From NCBI GenBank assembly GCA_013214355.1, contig JABSSL010000076.1, positions 1-64,000 of the forward strand: 64,000 nt of DNA, written 5' to 3'. This DNA is from Saprospiraceae bacterium. Lineage in GTDB: Bacteria > Bacteroidota > Bacteroidia > Chitinophagales > Saprospiraceae. The notes below the pieces were generated by a model that was given only the letters and a program-made list of their open reading frames with translations, did no database searches and was not told the origin of the DNA. The position numbers were made by a program, and so were the translations under genes. How positions within the stretch are numbered: position 1 is the first letter of the stretch; each line of letters opens with the position of its first letter. This document shows, piece after piece, positions 35,733-57,770 of the stretch.

Positions 35733-36311
35733 AATAAGATTATTTTCAACAAAGATAATGATTCTATAAAAGTTCGGACTGCTAATCAGACAGAACCCAA
35801 ACATATTGATTTTTGTTCTTCGATATGCTGGAGTTTCGAGACACTCAAAAAAGGCCTTCAAGGGTCTTCATGGAGGCTTAATCCTTTCATGTTTAGGCTA
35901 TCCACGAACTCCATCTAAGAAGATTGATTCTGATCAGTTGCTTAGGAATCAAATATAGTTAACAGTAGGTGTGCAGGAATTACCGAGATAAAGCTTACAT
36001 CTACTTAACGCCTAAAGATAAAAAAGGTCGGAAAGTACCTTTATTTTCACGTTTTGTTAACCAATGGCTGTCACCAATATTGCAGTTTGCCGGGAATACT
36101 GCAAGGGCAGGCTGAATCAAAACAAAGGCATTTATAAAATCAGTCCGTCGGCATTTTAACAAATGGAATCTCGAAATCGGCACGTTAATTGTTTATCTTT
36201 GCAAAACTACTAAGCCTCGGTGCCGTTCTGAAAAGTAGAATTCCGAAAAGCATAATTGCTTGGATGAATCTACCAAAGAATATATCCCAAAAACAGTCTA
36301 TACGATCCTTT

Positions 36312-39300
36312 ATGCGACGTATATATATCCTATGGCATATCATAATCCTCCCTATTTTTGCAATTGGGCAGAGCTGTGGCTTAACCGATACAGTACTCAT
36401 CAATCCGAACTCCAACGGAAGTTTCACGCTAAGTATTGAGGATTTTATCAATGATGATCTGGCTGATCCAGCCCAGGGGGTGTGTGGTATTGAACTGAAA
36501 TTCAAACATACCTTTGTAGAGTATTTTGAGCTATCCCTGACCTCCCCAGGAGGACAAACGATTGATCTGATTGGCCCTAATAGTGGTCAAAATGGATCCA
36601 CCTTTGGTTCGACTTGGGATATTTCCTTCATTCCATCCATAGAGCCGGCGATGCCAGATAGTGGCTACTTGGACCGCTGGGACAATGAACAGGCCAATGA
36701 CTTTGGTGTCTTTTTTCTTTATACTGGCTCCTATTATCCCTACAGTGGTAATTTGGAAGATTTCAATACAGGGGCGGTCAACGGGGATTGGGTTTTTAAT
36801 TTTAGCAATGACCCTTCGCCATTTAATACCGGAGCGGTCATCTTTGCCAGGCTCATATTTTGTGATAGCCGAGGGGTAGATTGTTGTTTTGGAGTGGGTG
36901 GAGAACTCAGAGCACCTGACCTACTGGCCTGTGAAGGTGATACTTCCTTACTGATAAACCCTGATCCCTTCTTCAGCGCTGGGGTGGCAGATACATCAGA
37001 ATATGATTATACCTATCTGCTCGCAAGAGATAGTCTAATTATCGGTTTTGATACGGTTCCCGATCTGCAATCCTTTAGCGGAGGGATGTACCAAATCTGT
37101 GGTTTGTCCTATCGCGCTTCGGAAGCGGATAGCCTCTCACAACTCATTAACACGGTGGACCTTGACAGCCTACAAAACAATCTCAATAGCTTTTTCCCCC
37201 TCTTTTGCGGAGATCTCAGTGATAATTGTATTACGGTGCAAATTGAACCTCCGCCAGATACAGTTTTCTTGATCGAGCAGATTTGTCAAGGAGACAGTAT
37301 TACAGTGGGGGATAGTGTGGTTTTCAGTACCGGAAACTATCTTTTTGAATTGGAGAGTTTTGCGGGCTGCGATAGCATTGTAGACCTAGATCTTACCGTG
37401 ATCAATACTATTATAGAAGATATTGATCTGACCATTTGTGAGGGAGATTCGGTGGAGGTTGGTCCCAGTATTTATCGCATTGAAGGAACTTATACGGACA
37501 CCTTGCAGAGTAGCCTGGGGTGCGATAGTATCATTAATCTAAACTTAGAAGTACTACAACCCATCATTACGAATTTGACGGAGAGGATTTGCCCTGGAGA
37601 TCGTTTTGAGGTAGGAGATAGTACCTTCACAGAAACAGGCTTATATCAAGTCAACTTACTATCAGCCCGGAATTGCGATAGCATAGTGAATTTGGATTTA
37701 AGGGTATTAGACCTGGAATTAAATATTGCGGAACCTGATACCATTACCTGCTTCAATAATGGGATTGAGCTCAATGCCAATGCTTCAAACCCGGCTGGGC
37801 TGCTGACTTTCGATTGGCAAGACATGGATGGAAATAGTATGGGTAGCAGCCCTATACTTACGGTAAATGTAGCCGATACCATAAGCTTGACGATCAGCAG
37901 AACAGAAGCGGGAACCACTTGTTCGGCCACGGATACGGTCATTGTTCGAGAAGATAGAATCCCACCGATAGCGGATGCTGGACTCGATATGGATATTACT
38001 TGTAGTTTCCCAGAACGAACGCTGGGTGGGACTACAACTTCAGTTGGAGTTAACTATTCCTACAACTGGCAGACCACAGATGGCCAAATCGATGGGGCTA
38101 GTACTACGGAACAAATCATCGTGCAAACTCCCGGCACCTATACTTTGGTTGTGACGAATACGGACAATGGGTGTGAAAGCCAGGACGATATTGTAATAGG
38201 AATCGACACCGCCAGTCCGATTGCTGATGCTGGTCCAGATACCCTGCTGACCTGCGGCATCACGGAAATAACCTTGGGCGGATCAGGAACTTCCTCTGGA
38301 GCTGAATTTTTGTATTACTGGTTAAATAATAGTGGAGATACCATCCCTGCCTCCAATACCCCTAACTTATCGATTAATCAAGCCGGAAACTATACCCTAC
38401 GGGTGACGGATGATAGTAATGGCTGTACTATCACGGAGACTGTAGAGGTAACGCAAGATATTGCACTGCCACAGATTATAATAGCTCCTCCCAGTTTACT
38501 GAATTGCGAACAAGTAGAGCAAACGCTAGATGCTACAGCTTCTGATCAGGGCCCTAATTTTGAGCTCTTTTGGAAGGCGAGCAATGGGGGGAATATTAGT
38601 GCTGGACAAGGTACTCCCACTCCTAACGTGGATGCAACGGGGAACTATGAATTGGTTATTACTAACCTGAGCACGGCCTGTCGGGATTCGGTAATGTTAG
38701 TGGTAGAAGATTCGATCAACACGATTACGGCTGCTATCGATGCACCTAGTCTATTGACCTGTGATGCACCCAGTACGACGCTAAACGTTTCACTTTCTTC
38801 CTCGACAGGAAGAGATATCCAATATTTATGGACCACTACTACTGGTAGTTTTGCTGGGGATACCATCGGGGCAAGCGTAGCAGTCAATGCAGCGGCAATG
38901 TATACCTTAGAGGTGTTGGACACCTTTACTCGTTGTTCAGCTACTGCTCAGGTTGAAGTCATCCAAGATGTTGGATTGCCAGTGGCAGAAGCTGGAGACG
39001 CAGCGGTATTAAATTGTGCGATTTCACGCTTGAGCTTAGATGGCGAAGGTAGTTCGATAGGGGCTAATTTTAGCTATCAATGGCAAGGGCCTTGCATTAT
39101 ATCTCCTTCAGATCAATTGGAGATTGAGGTAGATTGCCCTGGCACTTACATACTTGAAGTTACCAATACAGACAATTCTTGTGTTAATGTCGATAGCGTC
39201 ATAATCACCGAAAATCTCGAGTTGCCTGTTGCTGTAATTGATGCTCCAGATATATTGAGTTGTCGGGATACCGAAATCACCTTATCCGCAGTCTCCTCTA

Positions 39301-42300
39301 CATCCGCGTCGGATGTAGATTTTGCTTGGACAGGCCCAGGTATCCTCACGGCAACGGATGCTGCCCAAATACAACTTAGTCAAACGGGCGTTTATGAAGT
39401 AATTGTCACTGATCAGCTCAGTCAATGCACCGATACTACCAGTGTGACGGTAGTAGATGACATCGAATTGCCGATGGTGGATCTAGGACCCGATACCTCT
39501 CTAACCTGCTTAGTGTCCAGTTTAAGCTTGGGGGGAGGTACTAATTCAGCTGGACCTGATTTTGTTTACCAATGGACAGTGCTGGAAGGGAATATTACGA
39601 CTAGCTTGACGGAACCCACGGTGAATGTTGATGAGCAAGGTATTTATCGTCTAACTATTGAAAACATAGTAACAGGTTGTCGGGATTCAAGTACCGTTTT
39701 TGTCAATCGAACAGATCAAATACCCTTTGTGGATGCGGGTCCGAACTTATCCTTCTTATGTGATACAGACTCTCTAATCTTGCTAGGGAGTACCGGTGTT
39801 ATGCCTGAAAATGCTAACATCAGCTGGGTGGGTCCTTGCCTAGAAGGCCGGACAGATAGCCTAGTAGCAATAGCTTCTTGTCCGGGTCAATATATCATTG
39901 AAGTAGAGGATACTTCTACGGGCTGCTCCAATACGGACACGATGACGGTGCGAGTAAGTTCAGTGGTTCCTGTGGCCCTAGTGCCGGATACCGTATTTAT
40001 TTCTTGCGAGACGGGGCAAGCTATTTTGGATGCGTCCAATTCCTCCTTCGGAACTTACAGCTGGAGTTTTCAGGGCAACCCAATTGCTTCCACTAGTAAT
40101 CTCATTGGTGTGGAAGAAGCAGGTGTATACCTATTTACAGTTACCAATTTAGATGGGACCTGTTCAGATAGTGAAGAAATCTTGGTATTGGAAAATTGTG
40201 GACCACAGATTATTGTTCTTCCTCCCGATAGCCTTACCTGTGTTGTGTCGACTGTGTCGATTGATGCCTCGCAATCCACCCAAGGAGATAATATTAGCTT
40301 TGCCTGGACCGGGCCAGAAGTTGGCTGCATTACTGCTGGCATCGACAGCCAGGTTGCAGAAGTCATCTGCCCAGGTTCCTACCAATTGATCTTGACAAAT
40401 ACCGAGGTCATGGCTGCTGACACACAATTTGTGGAGGTATTTTTGGATACTCTATCACCCATTGCAGTTGCCGGGAATCCCGATACCATCACTTGTACCA
40501 TGCCTAGTCTGGAACTTTCAGGTATGGGATCTTCCGAAGGTAGCATCTACACCTATAGCTGGTCCAGTTTTAGTACAGGGGAAGTAATTAGTACCGCTCT
40601 CACGGCTCAAGCCACGGAGCCGGGGTCGTACTTACTTGAGGTAACTAATACGGAGAACGGCTGCCAAACTCAGGATGTCGTACAGGTTTTTATCGATGAA
40701 AATGCGCCACAAATTAGTTTTGGCAATTTACTTTTTCCTTGTGAAGCAACCGAATTTGATTTGGAGGCCTTAGTTACGCCCATTGATCACAATTACCAAT
40801 ACGAATGGACTGGTCCTGGTATAGTTGCTGGAGCTCAAACTCCTACGGTTCGAATTAATCAAATTGGGACTTATCAATTAGAAATCTTGGACCTCGACAA
40901 TGGTTGTATAGATGTGGCACAGGCCGAAGTGGAAGAGCAAGACTGTGTACCCTGTCTTGATTTGCAGGGCCCAGATATCCTAGCGATCACCTGTCTTATT
41001 GATGAAGTAGCTATAGATGTAGAGTTCTGCGATGATTGCGATAATTGTCAGATTCAATGGACTACTATTGGTGGAAACATACAAGGTCCTGCTAACACCT
41101 TAGATATTGGTGTCAATGCTGCTGGAACCTATATATTGAGTGTCACTAACGATATCGGATTTACCTCCACGCTGGAGGTGATCGTATTGGATCAAACCAC
41201 CTCTCCGCTGATTGATGCCGGACCAGATCGGTTCTTGACCTGTGATAGTACAACGGTAGTGTTAATGCCAAATGCGGATAGCATAGAAGCAAATTGGATC
41301 TTTTCGTGGATCGATCCTAATGGTAGTGAGATTTCGACTGAGTTTACTGCTACAGCAAGCGAAAGTGGGACCTACACGCTAGAAGTACTAGATACCATTA
41401 CGGGTTGCCGTACCAGTGACCAAGTACAAGTGGACCTGCAATCAGCTCCTCCGCTAGCGGAGGCAGGCCCAGAGCAAGAGCTAACGTGCCAAGATAATTT
41501 GGTTGTCTTAGATGGAAGTGGCTCTGCTACCGGGGCGGATATTGTTTACCAATGGAGTACTAATCAAAATACTAGCTGCCTCCAAGGGGCAAGCACGACC
41601 AACCCCGTGGTCAGTTGTGCTGGGACTTATTTTTTGGAAGTGCGAGATACGCTTAGTGGCTGTTTTAGCATGGATAGTGTCCTTGTACAGAATAGCGATG
41701 AATTACCGGCGCTAATAGCCGTACCGGATACGAATTTCACCTGTGCAGATTCTTTGCTGGTGCTAAGGGCGGAACTACCGCCAGCTGGGAGCTTTGGCTT
41801 TGAGTGGTGTGAAATCGAGAGTAATGGTCAGATCGTAGCTGGTAGCTGCCGATCTACGCTAGACTATGAGGTCCGCACTACAGGGCAATATCGATTTCGA
41901 GTGGAGGATTTTCAAAGTGGCTGTACTAATGAATTTACGGTGAACGTGGGGGCGGACACCATCGCTCCTGTGGTAAATGCAGGAGATGACGACACCTTAG
42001 TCTGTACCTCTCCGAGTATGCAATTGCAAGGTATGGCCGACTCGGTCAACACCATCTGGTCTTGGAGTGCCCTCAATAACAGCATGATCGAAGATTCGAG
42101 CACCCTATCACCTACCATTTTCGCTCCAGACACATTTCTTTTAACTGCTACTAATACCTTGAATCAGTGTAGCGCCACGGATACCTTGATCATCTTACGC
42201 GATGAGAATGCTCCAATTGCTGATGCAGGCCCAGATCAGAACTTTGATTGTACCACGCAAAGCCTACAGCTGACGGGCTTTGCCACCAGTAATAGTGGAC

Positions 42301-44000
42301 AATTTGATTTTGCCTGGACTTCTCCCGATGGGAATTTTGTCTCCTCAACGAATCAGCTAAACCCTGTAGTGAATCAACCTGGGACCTATCTATTAACGGT
42401 CAATGATCCCATCAATCAATGTTCTGCTCAGGATGTGGTGGTAATTACTGAAGACCTAGAAGCACCACAAGCCAGCATAACGGGCTTGGATACTTTGTCC
42501 TTCTCCTGTACCACAAGTATCGTTACGCTTGATGCAAGTTCCACCATGGGAGTGCAAGGCCATACCCTCCAGTTTGATTGGACTAGCCTTTCTGCTGGCC
42601 AACTGATTGGTAACCCCAATGACGCTATGATTCAAGCAGAAGGAGTTGGTCTATACCGTTTGCTGGTCACGGATACCGATAATAGCTGTAGCGATACCTT
42701 GATCTTTTCATTAACCGGAGATTTTGATTTGCCAAGTATTAACCTAGGTCCAGTCAATAGTATAAATTGTGCTCGTCCGACGGTTGTTCTTGACGCCTCT
42801 GATGGGGCAAATAGCAATTTGGACTTTGCCTGGTTTACCATAGATGGGCAGACCATAGTTGAGGATACAACTCGGATCAGCGTATCCACTGGAGGCACTT
42901 ATCAGCTAGTGGTGACAGATAATACGAATGGTTGTCAGCAAACAAGGACAATAGATGTTATGGCGGATACAGTGAGGCCCACGGTAAATATTATGCCGAC
43001 AGATGCCTTGGATTGTTTTAATAGCTCCATTACCCTAAGCGGGGCTAGTTCAGATTCGGGAGCAGAAATCGCTGTGGAATGGAGCACCTTAGATGGTAAT
43101 TTTGTCGGTAGTCCAATCGGATTAGAGACTACCATTGATGCCGCCGGCACCTACTTCTTGACCCTTACCAATTCCCGAAATGCTTGCTCAAATATCGATA
43201 GTATTTTGGTAGAAGCCTTATCCAATCCAATTATAGGTACTCGCCTCAATGTACAACCTCCTGCCTGTGCTGGGGGCGATATGGGAAGTATAGCAGTGGA
43301 TTCGATTCAAGGAGGGACAGGCCCCTTTGTTTTTTCCATCAATGGAAATTCCTTTGGCTCAGCCAGCCAGTTTTCTGACCTGTTCCCTGGTTCTTATGAG
43401 TTAGCCATTGAAGATGCGAATGGTTGTACCTGGAGTGAAACCGTGATTGTTCCTGAGCAAGCAGACATTAGCGTAGATCTTGGTCCTGATTTGGAAGTGT
43501 TATTTGGGGAGGAAGTTTTGCTAGAAGCGATTACCAATGCATCGAGTATTGCAGAGGTGATTTGGACACCCGCCTTAGGGGATACGCTAGCTGATCCCTT
43601 GCAGCAATTAATTGTCCCCACCTTTTCCACAAAGTACGCTGTAACAGTGATTGATGAACAGGGCTGTAGGGCTTCAGACGAGATTATTATTCTGGTCCTA
43701 GAACGAAAAAGGTATTATGCACCTACTGTCTTTTACCCCAATGGAAATGGTGTCAATGATACCTATACTTTGTATGCCGGCAATGAGGTGAGAGAAATTC
43801 GTGCCTTTCAGATTTTCGATCGCTGGGGGAATCAGGTCTTTGGTAGAGAAAATTTCCAGCCTAATGATCCTACTTTGGGCTGGGATGGCAAATTCAATGG
43901 GCAACCCATGAATGCGGCCGTGTATGTCTTCTTTGCCGAAATAGAGTATATCGATGGGCGAATCGAAATGGTTCGAGGAGACTTGACCCTCATCCGTTAG
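36312..44000 (+). CDS. Giant T9SS-secreted surface protein: P-domain-like N-terminus, many PKD/Ig-like repeats, SprB-like repeat, gliding motility-associated C-terminal domain
   Basis: Signal MRRIYILWHIIILPIFAIGQS; repeated DAGPD..LTC..GC units; PACAGGDMGSIAVDSIQGGTGPFVFSING (SprB-like); C-terminal VFYPNGNGVNDTYTLYAGNEVREIRAFQIFDRWGNQVF. Confidence 0.92.
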   Translation: MRRIYILWHIIILPIFAIGQSCGLTDTVLINPNSNGSFTLSIEDFINDDLADPAQGVCGIELKFKHTFVEYFELSLTSPGGQTIDLIGPNSGQNGSTFGSTWDISFIPSIEPAMPDSGYLDRWDNEQANDFGVFFLYTGSYYPYSGNLEDFNTGAVNGDWVFNFSNDPSPFNTGAVIFARLIFCDSRGVDCCFGVGGELRAPDLLACEGDTSLLINPDPFFSAGVADTSEYDYTYLLARDSLIIGFDTVPDLQSFSGGMYQICGLSYRASEADSLSQLINTVDLDSLQNNLNSFFPLFCGDLSDNCITVQIEPPPDTVFLIEQICQGDSITVGDSVVFSTGNYLFELESFAGCDSIVDLDLTVINTIIEDIDLTICEGDSVEVGPSIYRIEGTYTDTLQSSLGCDSIINLNLEVLQPIITNLTERICPGDRFEVGDSTFTETGLYQVNLLSARNCDSIVNLDLRVLDLELNIAEPDTITCFNNGIELNANASNPAGLLTFDWQDMDGNSMGSSPILTVNVADTISLTISRTEAGTTCSATDTVIVREDRIPPIADAGLDMDITCSFPERTLGGTTTSVGVNYSYNWQTTDGQIDGASTTEQIIVQTPGTYTLVVTNTDNGCESQDDIVIGIDTASPIADAGPDTLLTCGITEITLGGSGTSSGAEFLYYWLNNSGDTIPASNTPNLSINQAGNYTLRVTDDSNGCTITETVEVTQDIALPQIIIAPPSLLNCEQVEQTLDATASDQGPNFELFWKASNGGNISAGQGTPTPNVDATGNYELVITNLSTACRDSVMLVVEDSINTITAAIDAPSLLTCDAPSTTLNVSLSSSTGRDIQYLWTTTTGSFAGDTIGASVAVNAAAMYTLEVLDTFTRCSATAQVEVIQDVGLPVAEAGDAAVLNCAISRLSLDGEGSSIGANFSYQWQGPCIISPSDQLEIEVDCPGTYILEVTNTDNSCVNVDSVIITENLELPVAVIDAPDILSCRDTEITLSAVSSTSASDVDFAWTGPGILTATDAAQIQLSQTGVYEVIVTDQLSQCTDTTSVTVVDDIELPMVDLGPDTSLTCLVSSLSLGGGTNSAGPDFVYQWTVLEGNITTSLTEPTVNVDEQGIYRLTIENIVTGCRDSSTVFVNRTDQIPFVDAGPNLSFLCDTDSLILLGSTGVMPENANISWVGPCLEGRTDSLVAIASCPGQYIIEVEDTSTGCSNTDTMTVRVSSVVPVALVPDTVFISCETGQAILDASNSSFGTYSWSFQGNPIASTSNLIGVEEAGVYLFTVTNLDGTCSDSEEILVLENCGPQIIVLPPDSLTCVVSTVSIDASQSTQGDNISFAWTGPEVGCITAGIDSQVAEVICPGSYQLILTNTEVMAADTQFVEVFLDTLSPIAVAGNPDTITCTMPSLELSGMGSSEGSIYTYSWSSFSTGEVISTALTAQATEPGSYLLEVTNTENGCQTQDVVQVFIDENAPQISFGNLLFPCEATEFDLEALVTPIDHNYQYEWTGPGIVAGAQTPTVRINQIGTYQLEILDLDNGCIDVAQAEVEEQDCVPCLDLQGPDILAITCLIDEVAIDVEFCDDCDNCQIQWTTIGGNIQGPANTLDIGVNAAGTYILSVTNDIGFTSTLEVIVLDQTTSPLIDAGPDRFLTCDSTTVVLMPNADSIEANWIFSWIDPNGSEISTEFTATASESGTYTLEVLDTITGCRTSDQVQVDLQSAPPLAEAGPEQELTCQDNLVVLDGSGSATGADIVYQWSTNQNTSCLQGASTTNPVVSCAGTYFLEVRDTLSGCFSMDSVLVQNSDELPALIAVPDTNFTCADSLLVLRAELPPAGSFGFEWCEIESNGQIVAGSCRSTLDYEVRTTGQYRFRVEDFQSGCTNEFTVNVGADTIAPVVNAGDDDTLVCTSPSMQLQGMADSVNTIWSWSALNNSMIEDSSTLSPTIFAPDTFLLTATNTLNQCSATDTLIILRDENAPIADAGPDQNFDCTTQSLQLTGFATSNSGQFDFAWTSPDGNFVSSTNQLNPVVNQPGTYLLTVNDPINQCSAQDVVVITEDLEAPQASITGLDTLSFSCTTSIVTLDASSTMGVQGHTLQFDWTSLSAGQLIGNPNDAMIQAEGVGLYRLLVTDTDNSCSDTLIFSLTGDFDLPSINLGPVNSINCARPTVVLDASDGANSNLDFAWFTIDGQTIVEDTTRISVSTGGTYQLVVTDNTNGCQQTRTIDVMADTVRPTVNIMPTDALDCFNSSITLSGASSDSGAEIAVEWSTLDGNFVGSPIGLETTIDAAGTYFLTLTNSRNACSNIDSILVEALSNPIIGTRLNVQPPACAGGDMGSIAVDSIQGGTGPFVFSINGNSFGSASQFSDLFPGSYELAIEDANGCTWSETVIVPEQADISVDLGPDLEVLFGEEVLLEAITNASSIAEVIWTPALGDTLADPLQQLIVPTFSTKYAVTVIDEQGCRASDEIIILVLERKRYYAPTVFYPNGNGVNDTYTLYAGNEVREIRAFQIFDRWGNQVFGRENFQPNDPTLGWDGKFNGQPMNAAVYVFFAEIEYIDGRIEMVRGDLTLIR

Positions 44001-44652
44001 TAAGCTCTGTTTCCCATCTTGGTAATTTTCTTCCCAAAAAAGAACAAGTAGCAATTTTGACTCTAAGTGTTGCATCGCCCGGGCCCTTTATTTTTATTTT
44101 CTCGCTGTTTTCATCGGACTTAAGTCATTGTTTATTAGATTTTTAGGGCGTTAGTTGGGCGCTTTATAGGAGCTGTAATCGGTATGCCTATGCTACATTC
44201 TGTCCTGGTCTCAAATTGGGAATAGTTGTATTTTTGACCTAACAAGATGCTTGTTTTTTTTAGACATGCATCTGAGCTTTGGAGTGCCTTGGGCACTGCG
44301 ATTTAGGTTATCTTACATATCACACTCCTTGAATGAGGACTTCTTGGTACAACTCGGTACAAAGAAGTCTATGGAATTTTGTGTTTATCAGTATAGGAAA
44401 TAGGCCGGGATGATCTAGTCTCGGCCTATCTTTATCTTTCATTTAGACCTACCTTCCTTTCAAGGTTCATACCCTTAAAGACCCGACCCCCAATTAGACT
44501 TCCCCAGAGCTAAGTGATGACAACTAGTGATTGTTACAGCACTAGTCATGGTATTTCAGACTATGAGCTTCGTAGTCCTGGATGCTATTGTATGTGGTGT
44601 ACTGCTAAGCTAGATTTATATTGAAGACACTTATAAAACGTGAACAAAACTC

Positions 44653-44838
44653 ATGAATGCATTTAAAACACAGTATGGAAAATGGATCATGCTGGTAGCA
44701 GCACTATTTCTTTTTCTAAAAGGTTGGCAAAAATTTTACATTCCCAATGAATCTTCAAATCCTTATGTAATTGGATCGATTGCCTGTGTCTTGGTGGCCA
44801 TTATTTGGATGAGCTTAGAACCTGACCATGGGGCCTAA
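44653..44838 (+). CDS. Small two-TM hypothetical membrane protein (61 aa)
   Basis: WIMLVAALFLFLKGW and YVIGSIACVLVAIIWM hydrophobic segments; isolated intact ORF. Confidence 0.55.
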   Translation: MNAFKTQYGKWIMLVAALFLFLKGWQKFYIPNESSNPYVIGSIACVLVAIIWMSLEPDHGA

Positions 44839-45124
44839 TAGGCTGAAAATACGATTTAGGATTCGCTGATCTCGTTGGGGTAGTGTAACGGTTGTTTTGA
44901 TGATATTTTTACTGCTACATTCCCTCAACCCCTTTTTTGTGTTGTAGAAACCCTATTTGGACTCGATTTACCAGAAACAAATCGAGATAGGGACCCGTAA
45001 ATATAAAGGTAGCTATGCGGCCAAAAAAAGCCGATAAGCTTCCGGTTTTCCCTTAGCATCTGCCAAAAAACGAAAGATGTTCAAATTCAAGGAGAGCCGT
45101 GTTAAATTAGATCAAATTTACGCG

Positions 45125-46633
45125 ATGAAATTTTCTACAGCCTCAGCTGAAAGCTCGAAGCGGAGTCGGCGGTTGTTGATTCTGCTATTCATTAGTGCCA
45201 GCCTTATCTTGTTTTTTTCTGAATTACTGGAAAGGAGTATGTTTATTGATGGGGTATGGTATGCGGTCATCTCTCGTAATCTATCTGAGGGATTAGGGAG
45301 CTTCTGGTTTCCGCAATTTTCGGAGACGATTTTCCCGAACTTTCACGAGCACCCACCCTTTATCTTTGGTTTACAAGCTACCTTTTTTAGTGTTTTGGGT
45401 GATCATTGGCTCACCGAGCGCTTTTTTAGCTTTTGCCATTACTTGGCGACTGGTGTGCTGATCGCGCGACTTTGGCGGAAGGGCAGCAAATCCTGGCCTT
45501 TGCTCCAAGGGTACTGGATTATACCTTTGCTCCTGTGGCAAGTTAACCTGGTTACCTATTATTTCCAACCTGCCAATTTGCTGGATGCCAGTATTTCCCT
45601 GCTTGGACTAGCCTCAATTTGGTGCATGTGGCAGGGCTTACATCACCGTGGACGCTTGGCCTGGTTGGCATTGGCAGGTTTTATGCTGGTAGTAGGATTT
45701 TTAAGTAAAGGGGTAGTGGCCTTATACCCACTAGCTTTCATACCATTGTATGGATGGATATGCAGGGGGTATACTTTCAAGCAGATATTCTTAAATACGG
45801 CTTGGGTGGGGGTTAGCTTCGTGCTACTGTTGGGATTACTAGTCATGGTAAACCCAATGGCTTATGAGAGCTTAGCGAAGTATGTTGATGTCCAATTGTT
45901 GGCGAGCTTGAGGGGAGAAAGAAGGTTGTACTACTACCGGAGCAATCGCTTTTATACTGTAATCCAACTGGTTTGGGTTTTAGTTCCTATGATCTTGCTC
46001 TTATTGACGAGCCTGGGTGTGAAGCGCTGGATGAAACTAGAACTTCAACCTGAGGAAGTGGAGAAACGCCGATATACCCGCAATTTGGCCTTTACCTATT
46101 TTGCCTTGGGATTATCTGCCTCTTTACCCATTATGATTTCTCCTCGGCAGGCGATACCGTATCTACTACCTTCCATCCCGTTCTTCAGTCTGGCATTTGC
46201 CTGGTGGGCTGGTCCAAGTCTCATACAATTTTTGCAACAATGGCAGGAGCGTTGGAGCTTAAGTTTCAGGATAGTGAAGGGTGGGGGATGGCTGGCTGTA
46301 CTGCTTGGTCTAGTCATTTGCACGATGAAGGTGGGAGATATAAACGGGAGAGATGCCGGAGTGATACAAGATTCCAACTTGATCGGGCAGGTAGTGGGAG
46401 AAAACAAGACCATTTCCTCTACTACGTACAATATGTACATCTCCGGCTACTTAATGCGTTTTGATAAAATCAGTATTGATACAACAGATACAAAGCACCC
46501 TTATTTGCTGAGCAAAAAGGATGAACCCATAGATCAAACCCAATATGTCAAGATCCCTTTACCTACGATGGAATACGATCTCTATGAGCGAAGGCCAGAG
46601 GATGATTTCTTTACACAACATTCTAATAAATAA
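45125..46633 (+). CDS. Glycosyltransferase family 39 / ArnT-PMT-like membrane protein
   Basis: Multi-TM; FIDGVWYAVISRNLSEG and FHEHPPFIFGLQA match GT-C family context. ATG at 45077 also possible. Confidence 0.8.
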   Translation: MKFSTASAESSKRSRRLLILLFISASLILFFSELLERSMFIDGVWYAVISRNLSEGLGSFWFPQFSETIFPNFHEHPPFIFGLQATFFSVLGDHWLTERFFSFCHYLATGVLIARLWRKGSKSWPLLQGYWIIPLLLWQVNLVTYYFQPANLLDASISLLGLASIWCMWQGLHHRGRLAWLALAGFMLVVGFLSKGVVALYPLAFIPLYGWICRGYTFKQIFLNTAWVGVSFVLLLGLLVMVNPMAYESLAKYVDVQLLASLRGERRLYYYRSNRFYTVIQLVWVLVPMILLLLTSLGVKRWMKLELQPEEVEKRRYTRNLAFTYFALGLSASLPIMISPRQAIPYLLPSIPFFSLAFAWWAGPSLIQFLQQWQERWSLSFRIVKGGGWLAVLLGLVICTMKVGDINGRDAGVIQDSNLIGQVVGENKTISSTTYNMYISGYLMRFDKISIDTTDTKHPYLLSKKDEPIDQTQYVKIPLPTMEYDLYERRPEDDFFTQHSNK

Positions 46634-46640
46634 AGGTACT

Positions 46641-47534
46641 ATGACAGGGCAAGAAAACAACTTATTCAGTTTCGATACAGAGGAGACCTGGATGAATACA
46701 GCAGACTTTCATCAGTCTTTTGTAGATGAAGAACAGGAGATCTTATTTATCCACTTTAGTAAGCTAGGTAATAAATTGGCGCGTGAAGTGCTGGCTTGGC
46801 GGAATCACCCTGAGGTTCGGAGGTGGATGTACAATAAGGATGTGATTAGCGAAGAAGATCATTTCGAATTTCTAGAACAATTACCTAGGCAGCGGCACCG
46901 GTATTATTGGCTAGTCAAAGAAGGAGATAAGGATTTGGGGGTGATTGATCTCTCCAATTGTGCAGGAGGCGAAAGCGAATGGGGTTTTTATCTTAATCCA
47001 AAGTATATCGGTGGTGGGAAAGCCCTTCGATTGTTCCACCATGCGCTCCACTTTTTCTTTCGTAAGATTAGGCTCAATAAGGTGTACGGATACGTGGCCT
47101 GTGAAAATAACAACTCCTTGCTATTGAATGAGTTATTTGACATGAAATTGGCTGCCCTAATGCCCAAGCAGCACAATGGAGTCATACACTGGTACGCAAA
47201 ATATGAGCTGAATAGAGGAGAATTCCTTACCAGAGGTGTCAACCTTTCCGAAGTCAGAAGGAAATTGATTGGTAGCCAATCCGTATTGCGTCGGAAGCGC
47301 CGAGAAATACGCCTGCGTCAACTCCTTATCCAAGCCTTTGGTAGGCCAGGTTTTCCTTGGCGAGAGCAAAGTGATGAAAATAGCACGCTAGAGGGATTTG
47401 AGCCGAGCACGAATTCCATACAATTAAGCCATTTTTGTCGCTTACTAAAAGAGGATTTTGATATCAAGTTGGATATCCAAAGATTACTTACTTACCGAAC
47501 ATTTTCTGACTTGCTCAATAGTTTGGAAAAATAA
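46641..47534 (+). CDS. GNAT N-acyltransferase (PseH-like) with C-terminal acyl carrier protein-like domain
   Basis: VLAWRNHPEVRRWMYNKDVISEEDHFEFLEQL...GVIDLSNC; C-terminal STLEGFEPSTNSIQLSHFCRLLKEDFDIKLDIQRLLTYRTFSDLLNSL resembles ACP. Start at 46641 avoids overlap with the upstream gene. Confidence 0.72.
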   Translation: MTGQENNLFSFDTEETWMNTADFHQSFVDEEQEILFIHFSKLGNKLAREVLAWRNHPEVRRWMYNKDVISEEDHFEFLEQLPRQRHRYYWLVKEGDKDLGVIDLSNCAGGESEWGFYLNPKYIGGGKALRLFHHALHFFFRKIRLNKVYGYVACENNNSLLLNELFDMKLAALMPKQHNGVIHWYAKYELNRGEFLTRGVNLSEVRRKLIGSQSVLRRKRREIRLRQLLIQAFGRPGFPWREQSDENSTLEGFEPSTNSIQLSHFCRLLKEDFDIKLDIQRLLTYRTFSDLLNSLEK

Positions 47535-47570
47535 TACTAGGGAGGATCAAATTAGGATGGAATCCCTTCA

Positions 47571-48299
47571 TCAAATGGTTCCACTATCCACAAAGAAATT
47601 CTGGCCAGTAATCGAGCTGGCACTTTCACTGATTAAAAAAAGTATGGTACTAACCACCGATTCAATAGCTGTGGCTTTCTTCAGGCTTGTTCGTTTGTAG
47701 ATGCGGCTCTTTTGCTCCGCGGTCAGGGTAGCGGTCATATCTGTTTCCATAAAGCCTGCCACAATGCAGTTGGATCTAATGCCTTTACTGCCCCATTCCC
47801 GGGCTGTATTTTTAGAAAAGGCTTCCAGCGCCCCCTTGGTGGCGGCATACATGGCCAATCCTTTGTAGCCAGTATGGGCACTAATGGATGACAGATGAAT
47901 TATATTACCCGCCGTACGATGCAGTAGCATATTCCGTAGACAAAGCTTACAAAGTAACATGGGGGAAAGTACATTGACTGCAAATAGACGCTCTAAGGGA
48001 TCCAGTTGTAGATTGGTGATTAGATCATCGTAGGCCATAGCGGCATTGTTGATGAAAGCGTGGATCGGGGTTCCCTTAGGAATAAGTAGCGAGAATGGCT
48101 TCGTACCAATCGCTTCAGTCTGGGCCAAGTCTAAGGGCTGCCAATGGAGTGCCTTGGGATGTTTTTGCTGAAGTTCTTGCAATGCAGTACTGCGGCTTCT
48201 GCTGAGGCCAAATACCTGATGGCCAGCCTCCAAAAGCTGCTCGCATAGCGCTAGGCCTAGCCCACCAGAAACACCCGTGAGCAATACATTTTTTTTCAT
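47571..48299 (-). CDS. SDR family oxidoreductase, FabG-like
   Basis: NVLLTGVSGGLGLALCEQL; IIHLSSISAHTGYKGLAMYAATKGALEAFSKNTAREW; SSITGQNFFVDSGT. Confidence 0.88.
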   Translation of the reverse strand: MKKNVLLTGVSGGLGLALCEQLLEAGHQVFGLSRSRSTALQELQQKHPKALHWQPLDLAQTEAIGTKPFSLLIPKGTPIHAFINNAAMAYDDLITNLQLDPLERLFAVNVLSPMLLCKLCLRNMLLHRTAGNIIHLSSISAHTGYKGLAMYAATKGALEAFSKNTAREWGSKGIRSNCIVAGFMETDMTATLTAEQKSRIYKRTSLKKATAIESVVSTILFLISESASSITGQNFFVDSGTI

Positions 48300-49513
48300 C
48301 GTTTGATCTTTCCAGTGTGGGTCATTGATATTTCATCAACGATCTTGATAATCCTCGGCACCTTAAAGGCCTGTAAATTTTCCTTCAGCAATGACTTAAT
48401 CGTTGCAATGGATAAGTCAGGGTCAAGTAGTTTTACATCGCAACAAATGATATTCCCCGTAAGGGCATTTTTGCGACCATACACCCGGTATTGCTGAATC
48501 CCGGGAATCTGATCTAAGGCTTCCTCAATTTCTACCAACTTCACCCGGTAACCCGCCACATTAATCGTATCCTTTTTGCGGCCAGCAAATTGAAATCTTC
48601 CTTTTTCGTCTATAATCACAGTATCTCCAGTTTGGTACCACTCCTGCTCGGGATTCAAAATGCCAGGGTCTGCCAAAAGATCTCTGTGCAGCAGTAGTTC
48701 ATTGTTAACGAATTTCACCTTCGACTGGATAGCCTTCGGAATGACGAAATAGTCACCTTCGGAGGCAAATAGAGTTCCGGTCTCAGTAGTGGCAAAGAGG
48801 TTATATAATTTAGCATTGGGAAACGCCTCGTGGAGGCGAGCATGTAGTTTTGGACTCGATCTTTCACCGCCTATGCTCACCCCTTGAACCTTGTCATAAA
48901 TTTGTCCCGTAGGGAACAGCAATCGATAAAAGGTAGGTGTGGCAGAAATATGGCTAATCCGAAACCTTTCTAATAGATCTAGGATCAAGGGCTTATCTAG
49001 GCCAAAAAAATTTACTAAGAGATTATGATTAAGAAATGCTTGTAGGAATACTTGTAGGCCGGCCATATGGGCCGGATGATAGCAAAACGCCCACCGGCCG
49101 GCTGCGTATTTCGAACCAATTCGAATATTACGCAGCAGCCTTCCGATGGGGTAGTTTATTTGCTTGGGGACTGCGGTTGTTCCTGAAGTGAAAAGAGACA
49201 AAGTCGCTTTGGAGTGTAAAAGGGAATGCTGAAGGGTATCCCAGGTCTCCAAGGCTTTCGTCGTCTTCTCTTTGTTTATTAGAACATTGGTATTTTCCTT
49301 TTCTTGTAATGCCAAAGGCAATTCAAAGTCTTCATCTACTAGGTATACCTGTAGATCATTGATCATTGCCAAGATCAAATGTTGGTAGAAGGGGCGTAAA
49401 TGTTTTGCTCGAAGTATCACATTGCAGCCTTTCTGCTGGCGCAAGAGATCGAGCAATTCAGCGTAGGAGATACTATAGCCCCCTGGTAAATCTACCAAGA
49501 ATAAAGACTTCAT
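48296..49513 (-). CDS. AMP-dependent acyl/aryl-CoA or -ACP ligase (short N-terminus)
   Basis: SLFTSGTTAVPKQI; NLFATTETGTLF; YQTGDTVIID; GRKKDTINVAGYRVKLVEIEEAL; MTHTGKIKR. Confidence 0.9.
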   Translation of the reverse strand: MKSLFLVDLPGGYSISYAELLDLLRQQKGCNVILRAKHLRPFYQHLILAMINDLQVYLVDEDFELPLALQEKENTNVLINKEKTTKALETWDTLQHSLLHSKATLSLFTSGTTAVPKQINYPIGRLLRNIRIGSKYAAGRWAFCYHPAHMAGLQVFLQAFLNHNLLVNFFGLDKPLILDLLERFRISHISATPTFYRLLFPTGQIYDKVQGVSIGGERSSPKLHARLHEAFPNAKLYNLFATTETGTLFASEGDYFVIPKAIQSKVKFVNNELLLHRDLLADPGILNPEQEWYQTGDTVIIDEKGRFQFAGRKKDTINVAGYRVKLVEIEEALDQIPGIQQYRVYGRKNALTGNIICCDVKLLDPDLSIATIKSLLKENLQAFKVPRIIKIVDEISMTHTGKIKR

Positions 49514-49752
49514 ATAGAGAGTCTTTGATAGATCTCTTCCACCGTCTCAATCACGCCGTCCTCGAATATGTCAATTTGGAATTCATCCTCTAATCTTACG
49601 GTTAACTCTGCTAATTCCAGGGAGTCCAGTGCAAGATCGTTTCGAAGATGAGTTTTCTCTTTTATTTCCTCTAAAATAGCCACAGGTGGGCTTTTTTCTT
49701 CACAGACCAATTGAATGATCTCGATGACTTTCTGTCGTGCTTCGGCTAACAT
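49510..49752 (-). CDS. Acyl carrier protein
   Basis: DLALDSLELAELTVRLEDEFQIDIF phosphopantetheine-site pattern; 80 aa; 4-nt overlap with ligase. Confidence 0.9.
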   Translation of the reverse strand: MLAEARQKVIEIIQLVCEEKSPPVAILEEIKEKTHLRNDLALDSLELAELTVRLEDEFQIDIFEDGVIETVEEIYQRLSI

Positions 49753-56645: not shown

Positions 56646-57770
56646 TTAGTCTTGGTTCCAAGCAAGACTCCGGGCTAGGTTGAAACCCAGCGCCTCCAGA
56701 TTGTCCTCGCTTTGCTCTAGGGCTTCCGTGAGTGTGACGGGCTGACGTTGTATGGAAAAAGCAGCTTGCAGCCCAATCTGTTGGATGAGTTCTGTCGAGG
56801 CAAGTAGGGCACCACAAACGGCGATTACGGGCCGCTTAAACTGCTGAGCCCGTTGGCAGATCCCCTTGATTAACTTTCCCTGTACGGTCTGGTCATCAAT
56901 TTTCCCTTCCCCCGTAATCACTAAATCCGCCTGTTCTAAGGCATGATTAAAGTGGGCTTCGTCCATGATCGCTTCAATGCCAGATCTCAGCGTACCATTG
57001 AGGAAGGCCATGGCTCCATATCCCATTCCACCCGCAGCTCCTGCCCCTGGGACCTGGTCTAGTTTTTTGTGTAAACTAGCTTCCACTTGCCGAGCAAGAT
57101 GTTCCAGTCCAGTATCCAATTCTGCCACCATATCATCTGTAGCTCCTTTTTGCGGCCCATAGACAGCTGCAGCTCCCATGGGGCCAAAAAGGGGGTTATT
57201 CACATCGCATAAGACCTCTAGACTGGGGAAGGATCGTTCTGGTGGAATGATTTTGACAATCCGCCGGAGGTCCTCTCCATTTCCTGCTAATTCCTCATTG
57301 GCTTCATCTAGAAACTGATAGCCTAAAGCTTTAGCCATTCCAATGCCACCATCATTCGTGGCACTTCCACCGATTCCTAGGAATATTTTCTCAACGCCTT
57401 GATCTATGGCTTTTTGAATAAGTTGGCCGGTACCGAAGGTGCCTGTTTTCAGGGGATTGCGAAGAGGCCGGGGAACCAACTGTAAGCCTGAGGCCTCCGC
57501 CATATCGATATAGGCTTTGGTACCATCAGCCGATAATCCGTAGCCTGCCTTAACCGTCGCAGCTAAGGGGCCTTGTACTTCCACCTCCACCCACTTTCCC
57601 TGTGTGTGGTAAGTCATTATGCTGGCAGTTCCCTCTCCGCCATCTGCCATCGGGAATAACTGTATTTGGGTACTCGGATAAGCTTTTTTGATACCCCGCT
57701 CTAGCGCTTGACAAACCAATACCGCTGTTAAGCTATCTTTGAAGGAATCACAAGCTATTAGTACATTCAT
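56646..57770 (-). CDS. Glycerate kinase
   Basis: ACDSFKDSLTAVLVCQALERGIKKAYP; PMADGGEGTASIM; GIGGSATNDGGIGMAKALGY; GEGKIDDQTVQGKL. Confidence 0.93.
   Translation of the reverse strand: MNVLIACDSFKDSLTAVLVCQALERGIKKAYPSTQIQLFPMADGGEGTASIMTYHTQGKWVEVEVQGPLAATVKAGYGLSADGTKAYIDMAEASGLQLVPRPLRNPLKTGTFGTGQLIQKAIDQGVEKIFLGIGGSATNDGGIGMAKALGYQFLDEANEELAGNGEDLRRIVKIIPPERSFPSLEVLCDVNNPLFGPMGAAAVYGPQKGATDDMVAELDTGLEHLARQVEASLHKKLDQVPGAGAAGGMGYGAMAFLNGTLRSGIEAIMDEAHFNHALEQADLVITGEGKIDDQTVQGKLIKGICQRAQQFKRPVIAVCGALLASTELIQQIGLQAAFSIQRQPVTLTEALEQSEDNLEALGFNLARSLAWNQD

Follow-up and report, generated by a model that had tools for sequence, protein, structure and literature searches.

Surface nonulosonic acids carry non-acetyl N-acyl groups whose supplying enzymes are often unknown, the glyceroyl group at N7 being an example (PMC6120980). 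This group is found in a pseudaminic acid (Pse) of the Bacteroidota, in the Pse5Am7Gra O-glycan of Tannerella forsythia (PMC6388019, PMC6120980), where a hydroxyacyl thus occupies the position acylated by PseH, and its candidate gene "remains elusive" (PMC6120980). The flagellar islands of Aeromonas contain genes for an acyl carrier protein (ACP), an ACP-reductase and an AMP-synthetase, flanked by pse genes (PMC7874193). In the mupirocin system, which has a thiomarinol counterpart on plasmid pTML1, an AMP-ligase, a short-chain dehydrogenase/reductase (SDR) and a discrete ACP, namely MupQ, MupS and MacpD, make 3-hydroxypropionyl-ACP (3HP-ACP) from malonyl-CoA (PMC10098928). Here we analyzed a stretch of 64,000 nucleotides (the window; GenBank JABSSL010000076.1), which is contig C199 of the 11.2-Mb genome of a Saprospiraceae bacterium of the Bacteroidota (G000), and we describe a locus in which ACP, AMP-ligase and SDR genes face the genes for a glycosyltransferase and a PseH-like GNAT. 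We propose that the first three are a cassette for acyl priming and that the GNAT couples it to the N-acylation of a sugar, a reading whose chances of being correct we judge to be even.

The locus spans positions 45077-49752 and comprises five intact open reading frames (ORFs) in two convergent units, with 36 nt separating their stop codons. In the minus unit the order is ACP, AMP-ligase, SDR, and direct reading of the sequence shows that each pair is joined by a 4-nt ATGA overlap, which confirms this part of an earlier annotation of the same DNA, hereafter the original prediction. In the plus unit the GNAT gene follows the glycosyltransferase gene after 7 nt. The plausible start of the GNAT is 46641 and not 46545, and its orthologues begin at the same residue. 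The features are as follows:

45077..46633, plus strand: multi-transmembrane GT-C glycosyltransferase of PMT_2 type (GT39/GT83-like), 518 aa; ORF with a PF13231 match of 26.7 bits; uncertain member of the pathway
46641..47534, plus strand: PseH-like N-acyltransferase of GNAT type, its domain at residues ~34-195 followed by a long helical linker and, at ~241-297, a degenerate tail that resembles a carrier; TIGR03585, 103 bits
47412..47531, plus strand: part of the GNAT tail, residues 258-297, with an N-S-I motif and a PP-binding half-match; the orthologue from G396 has Ala at the Ser position
47571..48299, minus strand: FabG/MupS-like SDR, 242 aa; PF13561, 149.7 bits
48296..49513, minus strand: short AMP-forming ligase (405 aa), putative ACP loader; PF00501, 60 bits, and PF13193, 42.3 bits
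49510..49752, minus strand: discrete ACP, 80 aa, with an LDSLELAEL motif; PF00550, 29.2 bits, over the cut-off

The adjacency of AMP-ligase, SDR and discrete ACP genes in a single transcription unit is the arrangement of the MupQ/MupS/MacpD type, except that the gene order in the mupirocin and thiomarinol systems, ligase-SDR-ACP-ketosynthase, is unlike that of the window. The closer match in order is found in the flagellin islands of Azospirillum, where overlapping ACP, ligase and SDR genes stand in a context of pseI, glycosyltransferase and flagellin genes. These islands differ from the window by a KASIII gene (ACP-ligase-SDR-KASIII, between pseI and flagellin) and a second carrier, and their ligase is 32% identical and belongs to a sister clade. 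With the Aeromonas islands the locus shares the three kinds of protein, a PseH acyltransferase and Pse genes, the ligases being likened by description. The differences are that the Pse genes lie here on another contig and that no luxC/luxE or Maf protein genes were seen beside the cassette. The kind of system is therefore already known from Aeromonas (PMC7874193), as is its biochemical prototype, and what the original prediction had ranked as its best candidate for an undescribed system turns out to be a variant of a recurrent module. What is new here is the separate ligase clade, the pairing with a PseH-like enzyme that lacks the Tyr described below and bears a degenerate tail, and the compactness of a locus separate from the Pse operon. 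We considered the sfm operon of Shewanella as a precedent and rejected it, since none of its five genes, as they have been described, encodes an ACP or AMP-ligase. We found no paper assigning the ACP-ligase-SDR cassette a tested function in glycan synthesis, and literature searches on viosamine or hydroxybutyryl together with ACP returned nothing in the collection of papers searched.

Among the cassette proteins, the ligase keeps motifs TSGTT (A3), TTETG (A5), TGD (A7), GRKKD...GYR (A8) and GK (A10). The ACP carries the DSL motif and a PF00550 domain, with the Ser conserved in every cassette ACP compared (alignment of 17). The SDR, an adh_short_C2 domain protein, is 53-81% identical to those of the cassettes of G429 and of the genus, and 31% to the SDR of the thiomarinol plasmid. 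Its highest family scores are for 3-oxoacyl-ACP reductases, which speaks against the idea that the ligase charges the ACP with an amino acid or another non-reduced acid, as in DltA/DltC, and that the SDR works on a sugar instead of the acyl chain. This idea draws on a weak similarity of the ligase to amino-acid adenylation domains and DltA, and on the fact that SDRs also act on sugars. However, even where the locus is not a glycan locus (G332, G046 and G1124), the SDR accompanies the other two cassette genes, and we consider this explanation improbable.

In order to see where such cassettes occur, we searched 396 Bacteroidota genomes and found relatives of the ligase at E<=1e-18 in 22 of them. 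An SDR gene lies directly downstream of the ligase in 15 of the 20 ligase loci examined and directly upstream in 2, while the window genome has four further AMP-ligase loci, none with an adjoining SDR. A carrier ORF immediately precedes the ligase in most of the SDR-downstream loci, often with zero spacing. The surroundings of the Bacteroidota cassettes include PseC/DegT aminotransferases, PseI/NeuB synthases, CMP-transferases, initiating sugar transferases, flippases, an exosortase and a flagellin run. On plasmids of Rhodobacterales the order is acyltransferase-ACP-ligase-SDR, and one of these cassettes has DegT, epimerase and glycosyltransferase genes in its vicinity. The ACP-ligase-SDR set is thus a recurrent acyl-ACP cassette, repeatedly present in amino-sugar glycan and flagellin-glycosylation loci, and the likeness to viosamine-type flagellin loci that had been suggested from the window alone pointed in the right direction.

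Versions of the cassette also precede polyketide synthase (PKS) genes, on pTML1 of Pseudoalteromonas (thiomarinol) and on Burkholderia and Bradyrhizobium plasmids. Since the protein kinds are the same as in MupQ/MupS/MacpD and its thiomarinol counterpart, the cassette could prime a polyketide or a nonribosomal peptide, all the more as the genome holds a large nonribosomal peptide synthetase (NRPS) locus on contig C203. To place the ligase, we built a tree of 38 ligases with AMP-ligase paralogues as outgroup. The window ligase clade (11 rows) forms one group with a support of 100/99 and joins a clade of glycan-locus ligases (95/93) at 100/99, apart from the clade of PKS-linked (thiomarinol) ligases; the sister grouping of the window and glycan-locus clades assumes a root outside the 28-row group, as the outgroup paralogues suggest. 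Given this 100/99 split from the PKS-linked ligases, that no PKS, NRPS or free ketosynthase gene was found among the window genes examined, and that the adenylation domains of the NRPS lie on another contig, C203, a role in priming either kind of product seems very unlikely. The original prediction had taken the missing ketosynthase and sugar-nucleotide enzymes as a sign of a system either partial or distinct from known loci, but a ketosynthase is not required, because the MupQ/MupS/MacpD cassette yields a hydroxyacyl-ACP from malonyl-CoA (PMC10098928). A phage origin was also rejected, as phage matches were only weak and to generic AMP-ligases.

The cassettes of the window clade repeatedly adjoin acyltransferases. 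Outside the genus, 5 of the 7 window-clade loci (G332, G046, G1096, G857 and G429) have an acyltransferase, GNAT-like or LbH, no more than two genes away from a cassette gene, the GNAT-like assignment being weak for G046 (PDB profile matches from E=0.003) and for G1096 (a reading of the sequence). In G857 the ACP gene belongs to the same run of genes as the ligase and lies 5.4 kb upstream of it. At the window locus the sole acyltransferase found is the PseH-like GNAT, and we infer a coupling of cassette and GNAT because such cassettes repeatedly pair with acyltransferases.

The GNAT scores 103 bits against TIGR03585, the NCBIfam model of PseH, for which the curated equivalog cut-off is 93.1, and together with its orthologues it spans 103-105 bits. 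The window genome and those of two other species of the genus (G396 and G397) each have one gene above this cut-off, namely this GNAT. Its closest PDB relatives are the PseH structures from Campylobacter and Helicobacter, 4xpk (5e-15) and 4ri1 (4e-8). In H. pylori PseH the contacts to UDP-sugar and pantetheine are made by Arg30, Trp38, Met39, Tyr40, His49, Phe52 and Asn131 (PMC4363471). By alignment to 4ri1, in which Asn131 was placed by its spacing from Tyr138, these residues map to R54, W62, M63, Y64, H74, F77 and N156 of the GNAT and are invariant in the three orthologues; R54, M63, Y64, H74 and F77 correspond to the five that contact the UDP-4-amino-sugar (Arg30, Met39, Tyr40, His49 and Phe52). 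The PseH-like character proposed for the GNAT was therefore borne out, with both the curated cut-off passed and the sugar-site residues kept as in the UDP-4-amino-4,6-dideoxy-N-acetyl-beta-L-altrosamine N-acetyltransferases. The GNAT differs from these PseH enzymes by an Asn in place of Tyr138, a C-terminal extension of ~100 residues, the acyl-ACP cassette beside it and a position outside a Pse operon. An AlphaFold2 model of the GNAT (3 sequences) had a mean predicted local distance difference test (pLDDT) score of 44.6 and was unusable.

The extension had been read as an ACP fused to the GNAT, and motif, profile and conservation tests ruled out an active carrier fusion. The PF00550 match of the tail, at 16.4 bits, falls short of the cut-off of 20.8, spans only half of the profile, and is detected (E<=1) in 2 of the 3 orthologues. 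The carrier motif reads N-S-I in two of the species and N-A-L in the third, so that N replaces the D of DSL throughout and, in G396, an Ala (GCC codon) stands where the Ser is expected. Compared with the 17 cassette ACPs by hhalign, the tail gave a probability of 0.5%, and its interspecies identity is 39-53%, against 80-85% for the GNAT domain. Judging from these sequences, a carrier function of the tail is not conserved and the tail is a degenerate carrier-like domain, more likely serving as a docking or structural element than as a carrier. The fusion was found in no other genus among the 396 genomes of the phylum and in none of the plasmids searched, and we rejected the idea that the five-gene set extends across Bacteroidota.

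The cassette is adjoined by the PseH-like GNAT and the PMT_2 glycosyltransferase, and no sugar-nucleotide gene was seen among the neighbours scanned. This part of the original prediction holds for the neighbours scanned, but such enzymes are not missing altogether: PseB, PseC, PseF, PseG and PseI, all above curated cut-offs, are encoded in one operon on contig C79 (L045), and the complete operon indicates that the genome can make pseudaminic acid. The PseG of this operon is fused to its own GNAT, a kind of fusion described for Aeromonas (PMC7874193), which gives the genome one likely transferase acting on the 4-amino group. The window GNAT would therefore be a second enzyme, free for another acyl donor. 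Downstream of the Pse operon and on the same strand are genes for a haem-NO-binding (HNOB) protein, a hybrid histidine kinase and a LytTR regulator (L045 4664-8037, contig C79 of G000).

In the pathway that we propose, the AMP-ligase would adenylate a short carboxylic acid, or use an acyl-CoA as MupQ does, and load the discrete ACP. Glycerate is one candidate acid by analogy with the glyceroyl N7 group of Tannerella pseudaminic acid. The SDR would reduce the carbonyl of the ACP-bound unit to give a hydroxyacyl-ACP, for example 3-hydroxypropionyl- or 3-hydroxybutyryl-ACP. The PseH-like GNAT would then move the acyl to the 4-amino group, on which its family acts, of the UDP-4-amino-4,6-dideoxy sugar made by PseB and PseC of the C79 operon, and the resulting amide would become the N7 substituent of pseudaminic acid. 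Finally, the PMT_2-type glycosyltransferase may put the resulting glycan on exported proteins, which is the least certain step. The order of the genes, their domains, the PseH-type residues of the sugar site, the repeated presence of the cassette in glycan loci and the Pse operon are observed, and cassette and GNAT are each well supported; what we infer in this scheme is the acyl identity, the ACP-to-GNAT transfer, the acceptor sugar and the role of the glycosyltransferase.

The arrangement of the five genes is identical in G396 and G397. All five and both flanking genes, for the PKD and LruC proteins, are kept in G396, and the five in G397, at 74-91% amino-acid identity; conservation to this degree in two other species indicates that the arrangement is not due to chance. 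The dN/dS (ratio of non-synonymous to synonymous substitution rates) is ~0.03-0.07 for the ligase and ACP, and dS is saturated for most other genes. In G398 the cassette is present (ligase 58%) and a piece of the glycosyltransferase (59%) lies on another contig, both contigs ending inside the locus. The SDR frame of this genome (L021 2130-2221) suddenly stops resembling its relatives close to the end of the contig (residues YTHLRAHETEADL), which may be an adapter or assembly artefact. The adjacency of the two units is thus kept in G396 and G397; outside the genus the exact glycosyltransferase and GNAT are not adjacent to the cassette, and other acyltransferases replace the GNAT.

Several observations weigh against the coupling of the cassette to the GNAT. 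The cassette and the glycosyltransferase-GNAT unit are convergent and do not form a single operon, and their five-gene adjacency is known only from three congeneric species, in which it is weak evidence for joint function because the flanking genes are syntenic too. The Pse operon is on a different contig from the cassette. The mupirocin and thiomarinol proteins are only 29-31% identical to those of the window and their ligases fall in another clade, and in G1124 the cassette is present and no glycan or acyltransferase gene was recognised nearby. As for the GNAT itself, its Asn163 aligns with the Tyr of 4xpk that corresponds to PseH Tyr138. GNATs usually use acyl-CoA. Tyr138 is the general acid of PseH as proposed from the structure (PMC4363471).

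Another explanation could be that the two units are unrelated neighbours, the GNAT being an ordinary acetyl-CoA-dependent PseH, a second copy serving a Pse-like sugar, and the cassette making an acyl destined for some other acceptor, for instance a surface polysaccharide, that is acylated by an enzyme encoded elsewhere. The convergent transcription and the syntenic flanks agree with it, as does the fact that this GNAT stands beside the cassette in no genome found outside the genus. Moreover, the cassettes of G429, G1031 and G857, all in the window ligase clade, lie without PseH within polysaccharide loci, among genes for DegT aminotransferases and for flippases or polymerases. On the other hand, same-clade cassettes repeatedly adjoin an acyltransferase of another family and the only one nearby here is the PseH-like GNAT, while the Pse operon already has a GNAT of its own. 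We regard unrelated neighbours as a serious possibility, if not the one that we favor.

The coupling of cassette and GNAT also admits a more specific version, which we put forward tentatively and think somewhat unlikely: a PseH-family enzyme may have switched from acetyl-CoA to the acyl-ACP made by the cassette, giving hydroxyacyl-N7 pseudaminic acids in Bacteroidota, with the vestigial tail serving to dock the real ACP. If true, the use of acyl-ACP by a PseH-like enzyme would offer a kind of enzyme system for those non-acetyl N7 groups that are unexplained. The locus bears on the source of such groups, glyceroyl among them (PMC6120980), and on whether modifications enter at the nucleotide-sugar stage, which is called unknown in PMC12871550. 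With a cassette and one PseH-like acyltransferase in a compact locus, this is a simple system for testing cassette function.

The place of the glycosyltransferase is less clear. Its PF13231 (PMT_2) score of 26.7 bits is barely over the cut-off of 26.1, only this broad model matches, and no sequence relative was found in the PDB. On these matches "GT-C, PMT_2 type" is a safer label than GT39. Orthologues are found in G396 and G397 (82%) and, as a fragment, in G398 (59%). The gene adjoins that of the GNAT, as had been noted, but its membership of the pathway is unproven, and our confidence in it is low because the family, as a separate lineage and wider family, stands alone without the cassette in other genera.

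Other genes in the window encode a PKD protein of 2603 aa whose C-terminus is of the type IX secretion kind, a LruC/DUF4842 protein, an M14 peptidase and a glycerate kinase (56646-57770, ~7 kb from the cassette, a proximity that may be chance). The LruC/DUF4842 gene beside the cassette is single in the window and apparently duplicated in G396 (L026 10974-17035; copies 48-65% and 92% identical). A 12-bp terminator-like hairpin lies at 44400-44429, between the plus unit and the upstream PKD gene, such matches being no commoner here than in shuffled sequence. The NRPS locus of contig C203 is very large, extending over ~84-160 kb with ORFs of 2143-5591 aa and ~20 adenylation domains. Finally, both copies of the PMT_2-type glycosyltransferase in the genome (37% identical) adjoin a giant PKD-repeat gene of the type IX secretion kind (TIGR04131) in differing relative orientation, the pairs lying at:

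36189-46633 of the window: glycosyltransferase and PKD-repeat gene pair
L096 9343-15818 (contig C141 of G000): glycosyltransferase and PKD-repeat gene pair

No such pairing was seen in other genera, and with 55 TIGR04131 matches in the genome the double adjacency looks non-random.

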